Part shown: positions 19,129-24,466 of the stretch, one piece after another
Numbering within the stretch: the stretch's first letter is position 1
Layout: every line of letters starts with the position of its first letter
Assembly (NCBI GenBank): GCA_030688685.1
Contig: JAUYJF010000002.1
Span: 1 to 36,758, forward strand
Reading direction: 5' to 3'
From: Candidatus Yanofskyibacteriota bacterium
Lineage (GTDB): Bacteria > Patescibacteriota > Minisyncoccia > Minisyncoccales > UBA10102
DNA length: 36,758 nt
Program-made: the position numbers and the translations under genes
The notes under the pieces: generated by a model
Seen by the model: only the letters and a program-made list of their open reading frames with translations
What the model was told of the DNA's origin: nothing
Databases searched by the model: none

Positions 19129-19135
19129 AGAAAAG

Positions 19136-19164
19136 GGGCGAGGGAGATATGAACTCCCTCGCCC
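19136..19164 (+). other. GC-rich hairpin downstream of the 118-aa ORF
   Basis: GGGCGAGGGA-GATATGAAC-TCCCTCGCCC. Confidence 0.85.
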
Positions 19165-19173
19165 TGAACAGTA

Positions 19174-19200
19174 TTAGCAGTCAACCCCATTGACTGCTAG
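19174..19200 (+). promoter_or_regulatory. Variant CIRCE (HrcA operator), TTAGCAGTC-N9-GACTGCTAG
   Basis: Exact 9-N9-9 architecture of CIRCE (consensus TTAGCACTC-N9-GAGTGCTAA), with symmetric arm substitutions, 25 nt upstream of hrcA. Confidence 0.8.
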
Positions 19201-19207
19201 TTTTTTT
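19175..19207 (+). terminator. Rho-independent terminator superimposed on the CIRCE-like element
   Basis: TAGCAGTCAA-CCCCA-TTGACTGCTA-GTTTTTTT. Confidence 0.8.
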
Positions 19208-19224
19208 ATGGTAGCATAGTCTTA

Positions 19225-19917
19225 ATGCCCCAGACGGTTCGCCAGCAAGAAATCCTGGAAGCAATTATAGAAGAGCATATCAAGAGAGCGAGTCCCGTAA
19301 GTTCGCAGGTTTTAGGTGAGGCACGGGATTTCGGGCTTTCTTCAGCTACCCTGAGAAGTGAGATGGCAAATCTCACCGAGCAAGGGTTTCTTGCCCAGCC
19401 CCATACGGCCGCGGGGCGCGTTCCCACCGATAAGGGATACCGCTTCTATGTAGATAGTATTCTTGAGGAGCAGAAGGGAAAGCGCAGCTTTGAGCGCTTG
19501 CTTCAGGAAATGGAAGATGAAATCCAGATCCTGCAATCCCTGACCCGGCTTTTGCGCGCTTCTGCCTCGGGGCTTACTATTGCCTACCTTTCTGACCGAG
19601 AATTCTTTTGGAAAGAAGGGTGGGAGGAGGTGCTGGAAGAGCCGGAATTTGAAGAACATGAAACGGTTGAGAGTTTCCTGCGTTTTCTGCAGGATTTGGA
19701 GAACGCGTTCGCGCAAGAGCATCTTTCTGCCGGAGAATTGCAGGTGTATATCGGGAAAGAGAACCCCTTTTCTCCGGTTGAAGATTTTAGTATTATAGTG
19801 AGCGGGCTGCGTCTTCCCAAAAGGCAGACAGGGGTTCTCGCGTTAGCAGGCCCCAAGCGCATGGCGTACCCGGAGAACATTGGCGCCTTGCGCCAGCTTC
19901 TCTGGTATTTTCAATAA
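19225..19917 (+). CDS. hrcA: Heat-inducible transcription repressor HrcA (reduced)
   Basis: RQQEILEAIIEEHIKRASPVSSQVLGE...SSATLRSEMANLTEQGFLAQPHTAAGRVPTDKGYRFYVD; C-terminal YIGKENPF...GVLALAGPKRMAYPENI; first in the grpE-dnaK-dnaJ operon. Confidence 0.93.
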   Translation: MPQTVRQQEILEAIIEEHIKRASPVSSQVLGEARDFGLSSATLRSEMANLTEQGFLAQPHTAAGRVPTDKGYRFYVDSILEEQKGKRSFERLLQEMEDEIQILQSLTRLLRASASGLTIAYLSDREFFWKEGWEEVLEEPEFEEHETVESFLRFLQDLENAFAQEHLSAGELQVYIGKENPFSPVEDFSIIVSGLRLPKRQTGVLALAGPKRMAYPENIGALRQLLWYFQ

Positions 19918-19922
19918 CATCT

Positions 19923-20411
19923 ATGGAAGCAAAAAAAGAACAAACAAAGGAGCAAATTCTCGCAGATCTCGAAGAATGCAGAAAGCAGGCGGATGAGTAT
20001 TTGCAGGGGTGGCAGAGGGAGCGCGCTGACGCGCAAAACGTAAAAAAAGAGATGCGGGAATACGCGGAAGCCCTTGCCCAGCACACCCGCGAATCGCTGT
20101 TTGAAGAATTATTCAGTGTATTGGATAATCTGGACCGGGCAGAGTCAGCGCTCAATGAAAAGGAGAAACAGACAAGCGTGACCCAGGGGTTTCTCTATAT
20201 CGCCCGGCAGCTTCGGGATGTTCTGGCGCGGCACGGGGTGCGGGAGATACCAACAGAAAAATGCCAGATGTTTGATCCTGCCATCCATGAGGCCGTGCAG
20301 GAAGTGGAAGAGGAAGGCATGGATCCGGGAACAATCCTGGAAGTGCTTGAGAAGGGATACACGCGGGAAGGAAAACTTCTCCGACCCGCAAAAGTTACAG
20401 TCGTAAAATAA
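19923..20411 (+). CDS. grpE: Nucleotide exchange factor GrpE
   Basis: [52 protein letters not shown]...[25 protein letters not shown]. Confidence 0.96.
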
Positions 20412-20428
20412 TATTCACGTATATCACT

Positions 20429-22321
20429 ATGGCAAAAATTCTCGGAATTGACTTGGGTACTACATTCTCCGCCATGGCAGTCATGGAAGGAGGGGAGGCG
20501 AAGATTATTGAGAACCGCGAGGGAGCCAGGACAACCGCTTCTGTGGCTGCTCTCTCCAAAACCGGGGAAATACTCGTTGGGGTGCAGGCGCGCCGCCAGC
20601 AGGTTACAAATCCCAAGAATACGGTGTTCCAGGTAAAGCGTTTGATTGGAAGAAGATTTTCTGACACTGAAGTTCAGCAGGACCGAAAACTGCTTCCCTA
20701 TGAGATTCGCGAAGGCCAGGACGGGGGAATAGAAGTGCGGATGGGGGAAAAATGGTACCGGCCCGCTGAAATTTCCGCCATGATTCTCCGCAAGCTGAAA
20801 GCGGACGCGGAAGACAAATTGGGGGAAAAAATCACAGAAGCCATTATTACTGTTCCCGCCTATTTTGACGACAGTCAGAGAAAGGCAACCAAAGTTGCGG
20901 GAGAGATCGCGGGCTTGGACGTAAAGCGCGTGATCAATGAACCCACCGCGGCAGCTCTTGCCTATGGGCTTAATAAGAAAAAAGACGAGCGCATTATTGT
21001 GTACGATTTCGGAGGGGGAACATTTGATATCTCCATCCTTGAGGTTTCAGAGGACACTATTGAGGTAAAAGCAACAGGAGGAGATACGCATTTGGGCGGA
21101 GAGGATTTTGACCAGAAAATCGTGGAATGGCTCATTGCGGAATTCAAGAAAGACGAGGGCATTGACCTGGGCCAGGATCCCTTGGCGCTCCAGCGCCTGA
21201 AAGAAGCGGCGGAACGAGCCAAGATTGAGTTGTCCACCGCTCTGGAGACAGACATTAATCTCCCGTTCATCAGTTCTGATAGCGCGGGTCCCAAGCATCT
21301 CCTGTATAAACTGACACGCGCCCAGCTGGAGAACATGGTGCAGGCGTACATTGATAAGTCCACACAGCTTCTCCAGTCAACGCTGCAGGAGGCAAAATTG
21401 AGCGCGCAAGACATCGACGAGGTTATCTTAGTGGGAGGTCAGACCCGTATGCCCGCCATTCAAGAAGCAGTGAAAGGATTGCTGGGGAAAGAACCCAACA
21501 AATCCATTAATCCTGATGAGGTGGTGGCGTTGGGAGCCGCTATCCAGGGAGGCATACTGGAGGGGTCAGTGCGCGATGTTCTTCTTTTGGATGTGACTCC
21601 TTTGTCTCTCGGTATTGAAACTTTAGGAGGACGCAACACGGTGCTTATTCCCAAGAATACCACGATCCCTACTTCAAAGAGCCAAATCTTCTCCACGGCA
21701 GCTGACAACCAAACATCGGTGGAGGTTCATGTGGTGCAGGGAGAACGTCCTCTCGCTCCAGACAACAAATCGCTGGGCAGGTTTATTCTGGAAGGCATTC
21801 CGCCTGCTCCCCGGGGGGTTCCCCAGGTTGAAGTTGTCTTTGATATTAACGCTGACGGCATCCTGAACGTAACGGCTCGCGAAAAGACCTCCAATAAGAG
21901 CCAGTCCATTCGCATTGAGGGAAGCACGGGTATCTCAGAAGAAGAAGTGGAGCGCTTGCGCAGCGAGGCGGAATTGCACGCGGAAGAGGATCGCAAAAAA
22001 GAAGAACTCATTGAGGCAAAGAATAACGCTGAAGCTCTTCTCTATACCGCGGAAAAATCTCTAAGAGAAGCGGGAGAGAAGGTGCCCCAGGACGTGAAAA
22101 AGGAGGTGGAAGAGAAGATTTCCGGCTTGAAGCAGGTCAAGGACAATGGTACACTGGATGAAGTGAAAAAAGCGGCAGAGGAGCTTTCTCAAACGCTTCA
22201 GAAAATCGGAAGCGCGATGTATTCTTCTTCCGCGGGAGCTGTGCCAGACACCCAGAACCCAGAACAGGGACCTGAGGAGAAGAAAGACGAAAACGAAGGT
22301 TCCGACGAGAACACGCGATAA
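20429..22321 (+). CDS. dnaK: Molecular chaperone DnaK (Hsp70)
   Basis: [46 protein letters not shown]-type motifs, [27 protein letters not shown]. Confidence 0.98.
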
Positions 22322-22362
22322 GAAGGAAGTTCTCCTTGCCTGTTTCTCACTCTTATGTACCT

Positions 22363-23463
22363 ATGAAGGACTACTATAAAATTCTTGGCGTTGCCAAAAA
22401 CGCCACAGACACCGATATTAAGAAGGCGTATCGCCGCCTTGCCCACAAGTATCACCCCGATAAAGGGGGAGACGCGCAGAAGTTCAATGAAATAAGCGAG
22501 GCCTATCAGGTGCTTTCCGATCAAGACAAGAGATCTCAGTACGACAAGTTCGGAAAAACCTTTGAAGGTCCGGGATTTCAGGGAGCAGGGCCCGGAGGGT
22601 TCCGCTGGGGATGGGGACAGCCCAGCTCAGACTTTGGGTTTGAAGAGGAAGGGGGCGCTTCCTTTGATTTCCAGGATCTCGGAGACATGTTTGAGGAATT
22701 TTTTGGCGGTGGCCACGTTCACAAGAATACCAAGAAAGGAAAAGATATTGAAATTGAACTCGAGATCTCTCTGGAAAAGGCATTCTCTGGCGGGGAAGAG
22801 AGAATCGTGCTCTCACACCTTCAGCAGTGCGCGAGATGCCAAGGAGTGGGGGCAGAGCCCGGCGCTCAGGTAAAAGAATGCCTCATGTGCCGCGGAAGCG
22901 GAGAAGTCCAGGAGATCAAACGCACCGTGTTTGGGTCTTTCACCAGAGTTTCCACATGCCCTTCGTGCGCCGGAGAAGGATTAACGCCAGAACGCCTGTG
23001 TAACGTATGCAAAGGAGAGGGGAGGATTCAGAATGAGGAGGAGGTGCTCGTTCGGATCCCCGCCGGCATTGATTCTCACCAGATTCTGCGCATGGAAGGA
23101 AAAGGAGACGCGGGAAGACGCAAAGGAAAAGCAGGGGATCTCTATGTCCGCATTCTGGTAAAGCCTCACGCGATATTCACGCGCAAAGGAGATGATGTAT
23201 CTGTAACCGTTCCTATTCTTTTGTCTCAAGCTGTATTGGGAGACGACATCCAGGTTCCCACAATTGATGGGCAAACCGTGCAGTTGAAGATTCCGGCGGG
23301 AACTGAGTCCGGGAAGGTGTTTCGCATTCCCGGAAAGGGAATTCCTCATTATGGATCCTGGGGGAACGGGAGCCTCCATGTCCGCGTGGAAATTCAGGTT
23401 CCCAAAAAGCTCACGAAAGAACAGAAGGATCTCTTGGATCGGTTGAAAAAGGAGGGATTGTAG
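22363..23463 (+). CDS. dnaJ: Chaperone DnaJ (Hsp40)
   Basis: [36 protein letters not shown]; four CxxCxGxG-type zinc repeats. Confidence 0.97.
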
Positions 23464-23496: not shown

Positions 23497-23570
23497 GCCT
23501 CGGTAGCTCAATTGGTAGAGCAGGTCCCTTTTAAGGACAAGGTTTGTGGGTTCGACCCCCACCCGGGGCA
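23497..23570 (+). tRNA. tRNA-Lys (anticodon UUU), CCA not encoded
   Basis: Acceptor GCCUCGG/CCGGGGC, D-arm GCUCAAUUGGUAGAGC, anticodon loop CUUUUAA, T-arm GUGGG-UUCGACC-CCCAC, discriminator A. Confidence 0.96.
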
Positions 23571-23578
23571 CTCTCGTT

Positions 23579-24466
23579 ATGGAGAAGACCTCTCAGCAAC
23601 TGATTGATGAATGTCAAACTCTGAGACGGCGCGGCTTTACACTTGGGGAAATCATGAGAGCGACTGGTTTGCCCAGGACTACGGTGTACGGTTATATCTC
23701 TCGATTCCCTCTGTCTCCGGACATAAAGCAGCGGCTCATTAGGCAGCATACCGAAAGGATTAACGCGTTTAATCATGCGCAAAGGGGACACGCGCGGTCA
23801 GGAAGGAATTTCCGGAGACCTCAACAATGGTCCCGCGATTTGATCTTCTTGGTAGCTCACTTTATGTTTGATGGAAGAATATGTCATGAAGGTTGTCACT
23901 ATTACAACAGAAGCGATTTTCTTATACAGGAAATGCGAGAAAAATCGTTGAAGAATTTTAAACTAGAGTCAAAAATTGAGCTGCGAAAGGGTGGGGTGAA
24001 AGCTCTTAGCTACTACAACGTGGAGTTTGGAGAGTACATACGAGAGAAGGCCCTGGAGCTTCGTGTACACATCCGTTTGAGCTCCTTAGAAGAGAAACGT
24101 GTTTTTCTTCAATCCTTTTTTGATGACGAGGGAAATATAAGTTTCAATATCAAGAGAAGCAAAAGACAAGTGCGTGGGTTTCAGTACGACTTATCCCTTT
24201 TACGGATAGTACGGATACTTCTCATGGATTTTGGCATACCGAGTACAGTAGATGAGACATATAAGGAGATTATTATTTCCCGGAAAGGAAATCTCATGAA
24301 GTTTCGAGATTTCATAAATTTCTCTGAAGGAATATATATCAATCCCGAAAGAACGAATAGTATCTGGAAAAGGGAATTGTCAAAACGACAACTTCTCAAT
24401 ATGGCAATAGAGAGCTACCGCCCCTTGGGCGCGCCAGGAGTACACAAGAGCCCCCGTTTCTCATGA
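23579..24466 (+). CDS. Free-standing HTH + LAGLIDADG-type homing endonuclease-like protein
   Basis: N-terminal HTH (GFTLGEIMRATGLPRTTVYGYISRFPLS); two LAGLIDADG-like helices (LIFLVAHFMFDG and RVFLQSFFDDEG). Confidence 0.72.
   Translation: MEKTSQQLIDECQTLRRRGFTLGEIMRATGLPRTTVYGYISRFPLSPDIKQRLIRQHTERINAFNHAQRGHARSGRNFRRPQQWSRDLIFLVAHFMFDGRICHEGCHYYNRSDFLIQEMREKSLKNFKLESKIELRKGGVKALSYYNVEFGEYIREKALELRVHIRLSSLEEKRVFLQSFFDDEGNISFNIKRSKRQVRGFQYDLSLLRIVRILLMDFGIPSTVDETYKEIIISRKGNLMKFRDFINFSEGIYINPERTNSIWKRELSKRQLLNMAIESYRPLGAPGVHKSPRFS

Follow-up and report, generated by a model that had tools for sequence, protein, structure and literature searches.

A putative HrcA operator that carries the -35 hexamer of the hrcA-grpE-dnaK-dnaJ operon in a family of Patescibacteria

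A segment of about 50 bp upstream of hrcA in a Candidatus Yanofskyibacteriota genome appears to be a fused operator-promoter of the hrcA-grpE-dnaK-dnaJ operon, in which the -35 hexamer lies inside a CIRCE-type HrcA operator. From the sequence evidence presented here, we put the probability of this reading at roughly 85%. The segment lies in a 36,758-nucleotide stretch of DNA, referred to here as the window (assembly GCA_030688685.1, contig JAUYJF010000002.1, positions 1 to 36,758), and the features around it are collected in Table 1.

Results

The operator and its conservation upstream of hrcA

The source genome comprises 694 kb in 48 contigs and encodes a single HrcA (PF01628 above the cutoff), whose gene is the first of an operon in the order hrcA-grpE-dnaK-dnaJ. 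HrcA is about 230 amino acids long here, roughly 215 to 300 amino acids in the sampled Patescibacteria and Omnitrophota, and about 340 to 360 amino acids in Firmicutes. The Pfam match of the protein leaves the first ~76 positions of PF01628 uncovered.

Table 1. Coordinates of features in and around the hrcA operon (positions in the window)
Feature	Positions	Strand	Remarks
GC-rich hairpin, 12 bp (GGGGCGAGGGAG/CTCCCTCGCCCT)	19135-19165	+	No U-tract; just past the stop of the upstream 118-aa ORF; separate from the operator
CIRCE-type HrcA operator (putative)	19174-19200	+	TTAGCAGTC-N9-GACTGCTAG; precedes hrcA in 18/18 family genomes
Operator left arm TTAGCAGTC	19174-19182		
Operator loop AACCCCATT	19183-19191		
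Operator right arm GACTGCTAG	19192-19200		
-35 hexamer TTGACT	19190-19195	+	Last two loop bases and first four right-arm bases; register common to 18/18 family members
T7 tract	19201-19207	+	After the operator, within the -35/-10 spacer; candidate U-tract only for upstream read-through RNA
-10 hexamer TAGCAT, preceded by TGG (extended -10)	19212-19217	+	16-nt spacer to the -35
hrcA	19225-19917	+	230 aa, predicted leaderless; PF01628, E = 1.6e-18; resembles T. maritima HrcA (1STZ) across the DNA-binding domain
grpE	19923-20411	+	PF01025
dnaK	20429-22321	+	PF00012
dnaJ	22336-23463	+	PF00226/PF00684/PF01556
ORF with a LAGLIDADG-like domain	23546-24466		Directly after dnaJ

The operator is an exact 9-9-9 inverted repeat, with two 9-nt arms around a 9-nt spacer, as the initial annotation had described it, and stands 24 nt upstream of the hrcA ATG. 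The outermost arm pair is imperfect, the right arm ending in G, and 15 of the 18 arm bases agree with the canonical arms TTAGCACTC/GAGTGCTAA. At a tolerance of three mismatches to the symmetric pattern, the whole window contains this one site, which has a single mismatch; 0.01 matches per window would be expected by chance.

An HrcA match was obtained in 18 of the 25 genomes of the family. At every one of these 18 hrcA loci the repeat precedes the gene, the loop ends in TT, the right arm begins with GACTGC, and TTGACT serves as the candidate -35. The family layout can be written TTAGCA(G/A/C)TC-N7-TTGACTGCTAA, followed after 16 to 17 nt by a TATAAT-like -10 and then, usually 6 to 9 nt further on, by the ATG. 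The initial annotation had named absence of the repeat before orthologous hrcA genes as the observation that would count against an HrcA operator. The repeat is instead present in 18 of 18 family genomes and recurs in the wider order, and it tends to be lost together with hrcA. In six of the seven family genomes without a detected hrcA, no operator was found within two mismatches; in two of these six (G002 and G004) a groES site persists in which one arm is intact or nearly so and the other has decayed. The seventh (G006) retains perfect or near-perfect sites, probably because the contig with hrcA is missing from the assembly; since these sites lie before clpB and before groES, and the assembly is only 82% complete, this genome was not counted as an exception to the co-loss. 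That the repeat is a chance similarity, devoid of any HrcA function, is a reading for which we found no supporting point, and it would have to accommodate the low chance expectation, the conservation in 18 of 18 genomes, the co-loss with hrcA and a second site at groES; its probability is negligible. The attributes by which a CIRCE is recognized, namely the arms and spacer, a position before the hrcA/dnaK and groE operons, a genomic HrcA, and co-loss with it, are all found in these sequences, and the family form TTAGCAGTC-N9-GACTGCTAA is a putative HrcA target.

A predicted promoter with its -35 inside the operator

The -35 hexamer had been attributed to the right arm of the repeat. TTGACT is indeed there, but its TT comes from the loop and the arm contributes GACT only. 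The window promoter, TTGACT-16-TAGCAT, matches the consensus at 9 of 12 positions and has a TG extension, the -10 alone matching at 4 of 6; the -10 and its 7-nt distance to the ATG are as originally reported. Across the family, a -10-like hexamer follows the -35 after 16 to 17 nt, with summed matches of 91/108 against 49.8 +/- 3.9 in shuffled spacers, about 10 standard deviations above the shuffles. With -35 and -10 hexamers at a spacing within 16 to 18 nt, the hrcA upstream region has the sequence organization of a sigma-70-type promoter. Promoters were called as consensus matches, and start codons were picked by rule.

The distance from the -10 to the ATG is 6 to 9 nt at 14 of the 18 family hrcA loci. 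It is 12 nt at L013, 14 nt at L014 and 48 nt at L016, and L018 has no -10 that passes the rule used. A Shine-Dalgarno-like motif was seen at just one of the 18 loci. Among family and order loci taken together, 53 of 87 have a consensus-called -10 lying 5 to 9 nt before the ATG, compared with 0 of 19 in the rest of the phylum. In mapped Mollicutes promoters, the commonest spacing between the -10 and the transcription start site is 6 nt (PMC5138195). Because the family spacing is mostly 6 to 9 nt and a Shine-Dalgarno-like motif is found at 1 of 18 loci, the predicted 5' end of the hrcA mRNA is at the AUG or right next to it, which would make the message leaderless. Such a start had been proposed for the window, and the upstream layout shared by the 18 family hrcA genes, and found in the wider order, may support it.

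The register of the -35 and the C/G swap in the arms

We compared the sequences that precede hrcA at 125 loci drawn from the family, order, class, and phylum. The sample favors HrcA proteins similar to the query, and the counts are of loci that passed the automatic HrcA motif finder, which dropped 36; the registers of L018 and L233 were assigned by hand. Relative to the first base of the CIRCE, the -35 starts at +16 nt in 46 loci and at +7 to +13 nt in 55, and it lies upstream of the CIRCE, mostly by 30 to 34 nt, in the remaining 24 (the classic layout). Registers 9 to 13 require no change in the arms; register 16 takes up one base of the right arm (GAG to GAC), and register 7 one base of the left arm (C to T, in 3 of 3 loci). 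A right-arm C is found in 46/46 loci at register 16, in 14/55 at registers 7 to 13, and in 0/24 of the classic layout. With the family of the window excluded, the proportions are 28/28 and 14/55 (Fisher test, 7e-12, relatedness inflating such tests). Registers of both types occur within each of seven GTDB families (f5, f156, f158, f162, f169, f175, and f191), and without exception in these families the C is present in register-16 members and absent from register-9 members. As relatedness inflates tests made across loci, we take this within-family contrast to be the better evidence. A further register-16 fusion of operator and promoter precedes clpB in G006 (L294:2965-2991). A second operator variant, TTATCA for TTAGCA (G4 to T), was seen at 32 order-level loci, among them L154, L163, L174, and L179, and was confined to the order in our sample.

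The change of right-arm GAG to GAC would thus be due to the -35 sitting at the junction of loop and right arm, and the C/G swap appears to be mainly a matter of promoter overlap. The overlap seems sufficient for the right-arm C, and other causes probably exist too, since 14 of the 55 loci with the -35 elsewhere in the operator also carry it.

The groES operator and the specificity of HrcA

About 37 nt upstream of groES, the source genome carries another CIRCE-like site, TTAGCAATC-N9-GAGTGCCAG. There the promoter lies upstream of the operator, which is free of -35 overlap. Among groES loci that passed the finder (1 family and 10 order loci were dropped), position 7 of the half-sites is G in 14, C in 11 and A in 5 cases in the family, and C in 7, G in 6 and A in 5 in the order, while bases 2 and 4 to 6 are invariant in the family half-sites. 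In Waddlia, ChIP-seq and EMSA gave the HrcA motif TAGCA-N15-TGCTAA, in which position 7 is free (PMC4989314). As position 7 is degenerate at groES, where no -35 overlaps it, HrcA proteins of the order appear to read this position loosely and to tolerate its change. In the groES CIRCE the 9-nt loop, too, is conserved: many family and order members (L136, L140, L141, L143, L144, L146, L282, L286, and L293) share AAAGGTC followed by two further bases, a conservation that the hrcA loops do not show.

The initial annotation had viewed the C/G swap as symmetric. In an alternative reading, the HrcA of this family has acquired a new specificity for G at position 7, and the operator changed by coevolution with its repressor instead of under a constraint from the promoter. 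A left-arm G at position 7 is indeed enriched, occurring at 13/18 loci in the family and at 6/28 of the remaining register-16 loci (p = 9e-4), and HrcA residue 51, invariably E in the phylum-level and Firmicutes-type proteins sampled, is T, S, A, or I in most of the order; in arms free of a -35, position 7 is more often non-C when residue 51 is not E (p = 4e-5, a value calculated without phylogenetic correction). However, the family groES half-sites are as mixed as those of the order, the right arm has C in all register-16 members regardless of their HrcA, the recognition-helix residues of the family resemble those of neighbors with C at position 7, and the residue-51 correlation is confounded with clade. 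We therefore consider a new specificity rather unlikely. The swap itself is present in the window, but it does not amount to a new HrcA code: in the right arm the change is explained by the register of the -35, and even at groES position 7 varies. Restoration of arm symmetry by the left-arm G seems mostly achieved in the family of the window. As for residue 51, its change accompanies a looser position 7 but may be no more than a clade marker. A specificity code located in the recognition helix was also sought and was rejected, there being no clear within-family difference and, for residue 51 and its neighbors, a correlation at the level of the clade.

The terminator question

The repeat had also been proposed to terminate transcription of the upstream gene. 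As RNA, the operator would form a hairpin of 12 bp with a 5-nt loop (-15 kcal/mol, z = -7.6), followed by the T7 tract, and the upstream 118-aa ORF is codirectional and ends 45 nt before the operator. This stem, its tail and the nearby same-strand ORF would suit a repeat that is mainly an intrinsic terminator for that ORF, its likeness to CIRCE being secondary. The relatives argue against this. In seven of them the upstream gene is divergent, and the T-rich tail, with 4 to 7 T in 8 positions, is as strong as in the codirectional cases; it is weakest (2 and 0 T) in two relatives whose same-strand gene abuts or overlaps the operator. Moreover, a separate and stronger GC-rich hairpin already follows the upstream stop in the window, independent of the operator, and the T residues fall in the spacer between -35 and -10. 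A repeat serving chiefly as a terminator is accordingly improbable, and a conserved terminator function is not supported by the orientation of the upstream genes in relatives. What stands of the original proposal is that the hairpin and T7 exist in this genome; a conserved role finds no support, as the T-tract fails to track upstream gene orientation. The T-rich stretch belongs to the promoter spacer, and local termination of read-through may be a by-product in this genome. In L005, L006, L007, L011, L012, L017, and L020, the ORF divergent from hrcA is 238 to 305 amino acids long (299 to 305 in six of the seven).

Discussion

The operator, the promoter overlap, the register rule, and the co-loss are read directly from sequence, and from them we infer the remaining steps of a mechanism. 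At normal temperature, an HrcA dimer bound to the operator would mask the -35 and keep RNA polymerase, with its sigma factor, off the promoter. Upon heat shock, HrcA would be inactivated and released and the operon derepressed. Judging from the spacing, transcription would then begin at or next to the hrcA ATG and yield a leaderless message for leaderless translation, and with hrcA as the first gene of the operon the system would be autoregulated. Under this arrangement the -35 would be confined to registers compatible with the operator, lying either within the 9-nt loop, clear of both arms, or partly in an arm, one base of which would then have to change. The family -35, at the junction of loop and right arm, would turn GAG into GAC; HrcA would tolerate GAC because position 7 lies outside the essential TTAGCA/TGCTAA core, and the left arm would mostly have shifted to G, restoring symmetry. 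A broader version, in which operator and promoter evolve in the order as one merged element and the -35 has repeatedly shifted among CIRCE-compatible registers, the arm base it claims changing each time, while the HrcA of the family has started to follow, the free arm is drifting to G so that symmetry returns, and the message is becoming leaderless, is a tentative proposal to which we give somewhat less than even odds.

The HrcA/CIRCE system itself is well known. The Bacillus subtilis system of class I heat-shock genes, with TTAGCACTC-N9-GAGTGCTAA, shares the repressor family, the 9-9-9 operator and the targets hrcA-grpE-dnaK-dnaJ and groESL. There, however, the operator lies downstream of the -10 in the 5' untranslated region, whereas here it lies over the -35, arm position 7 is changed, and the predicted leaderless message would not contain the CIRCE. 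The chlamydial (Waddlia) motif likewise keeps the core TTAGCA/TGCTAA and leaves the inner arm bases free; that degeneracy emerged from ChIP-seq, whereas here one degenerate base is used by the -35 hexamer (PMC4989314). At Pgro and Phrc of Campylobacter jejuni, CIRCE also overlaps the core promoter, and steric exclusion of RNA polymerase has been proposed, but the operator there covers the transcription start site, in contrast to an operator that covers the -35 and a start site predicted at the start codon (PMC7464140). In Mycoplasma gallisepticum, another genome-reduced bacterium with some leaderless messages, CIRCE likewise lies upstream of chaperone promoters; in the text consulted, the sites are defined by canonical arms and a fusion of -35 and arm is not described (PMC4245973). 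A search of the open-access literature returned nothing on point for variant arms, CIRCE/-35 fusion, or leaderless genes in Patescibacteria, and judged against that literature it is the architecture that is new.

CIRCE is often regarded as an operator that hardly varies. In the clade described here, an overlapping -35 hexamer appears to dictate both its position and one of its bases. Several related families include both register types, and groES provides a matched control within each genome, so that trade-offs between operator and promoter become testable by sequence. The register-dependent arms suggest why searches with a fixed CIRCE can miss HrcA sites in Patescibacteria. For the organisms themselves, the prediction is that a central stress operon would undergo leaderless translation.
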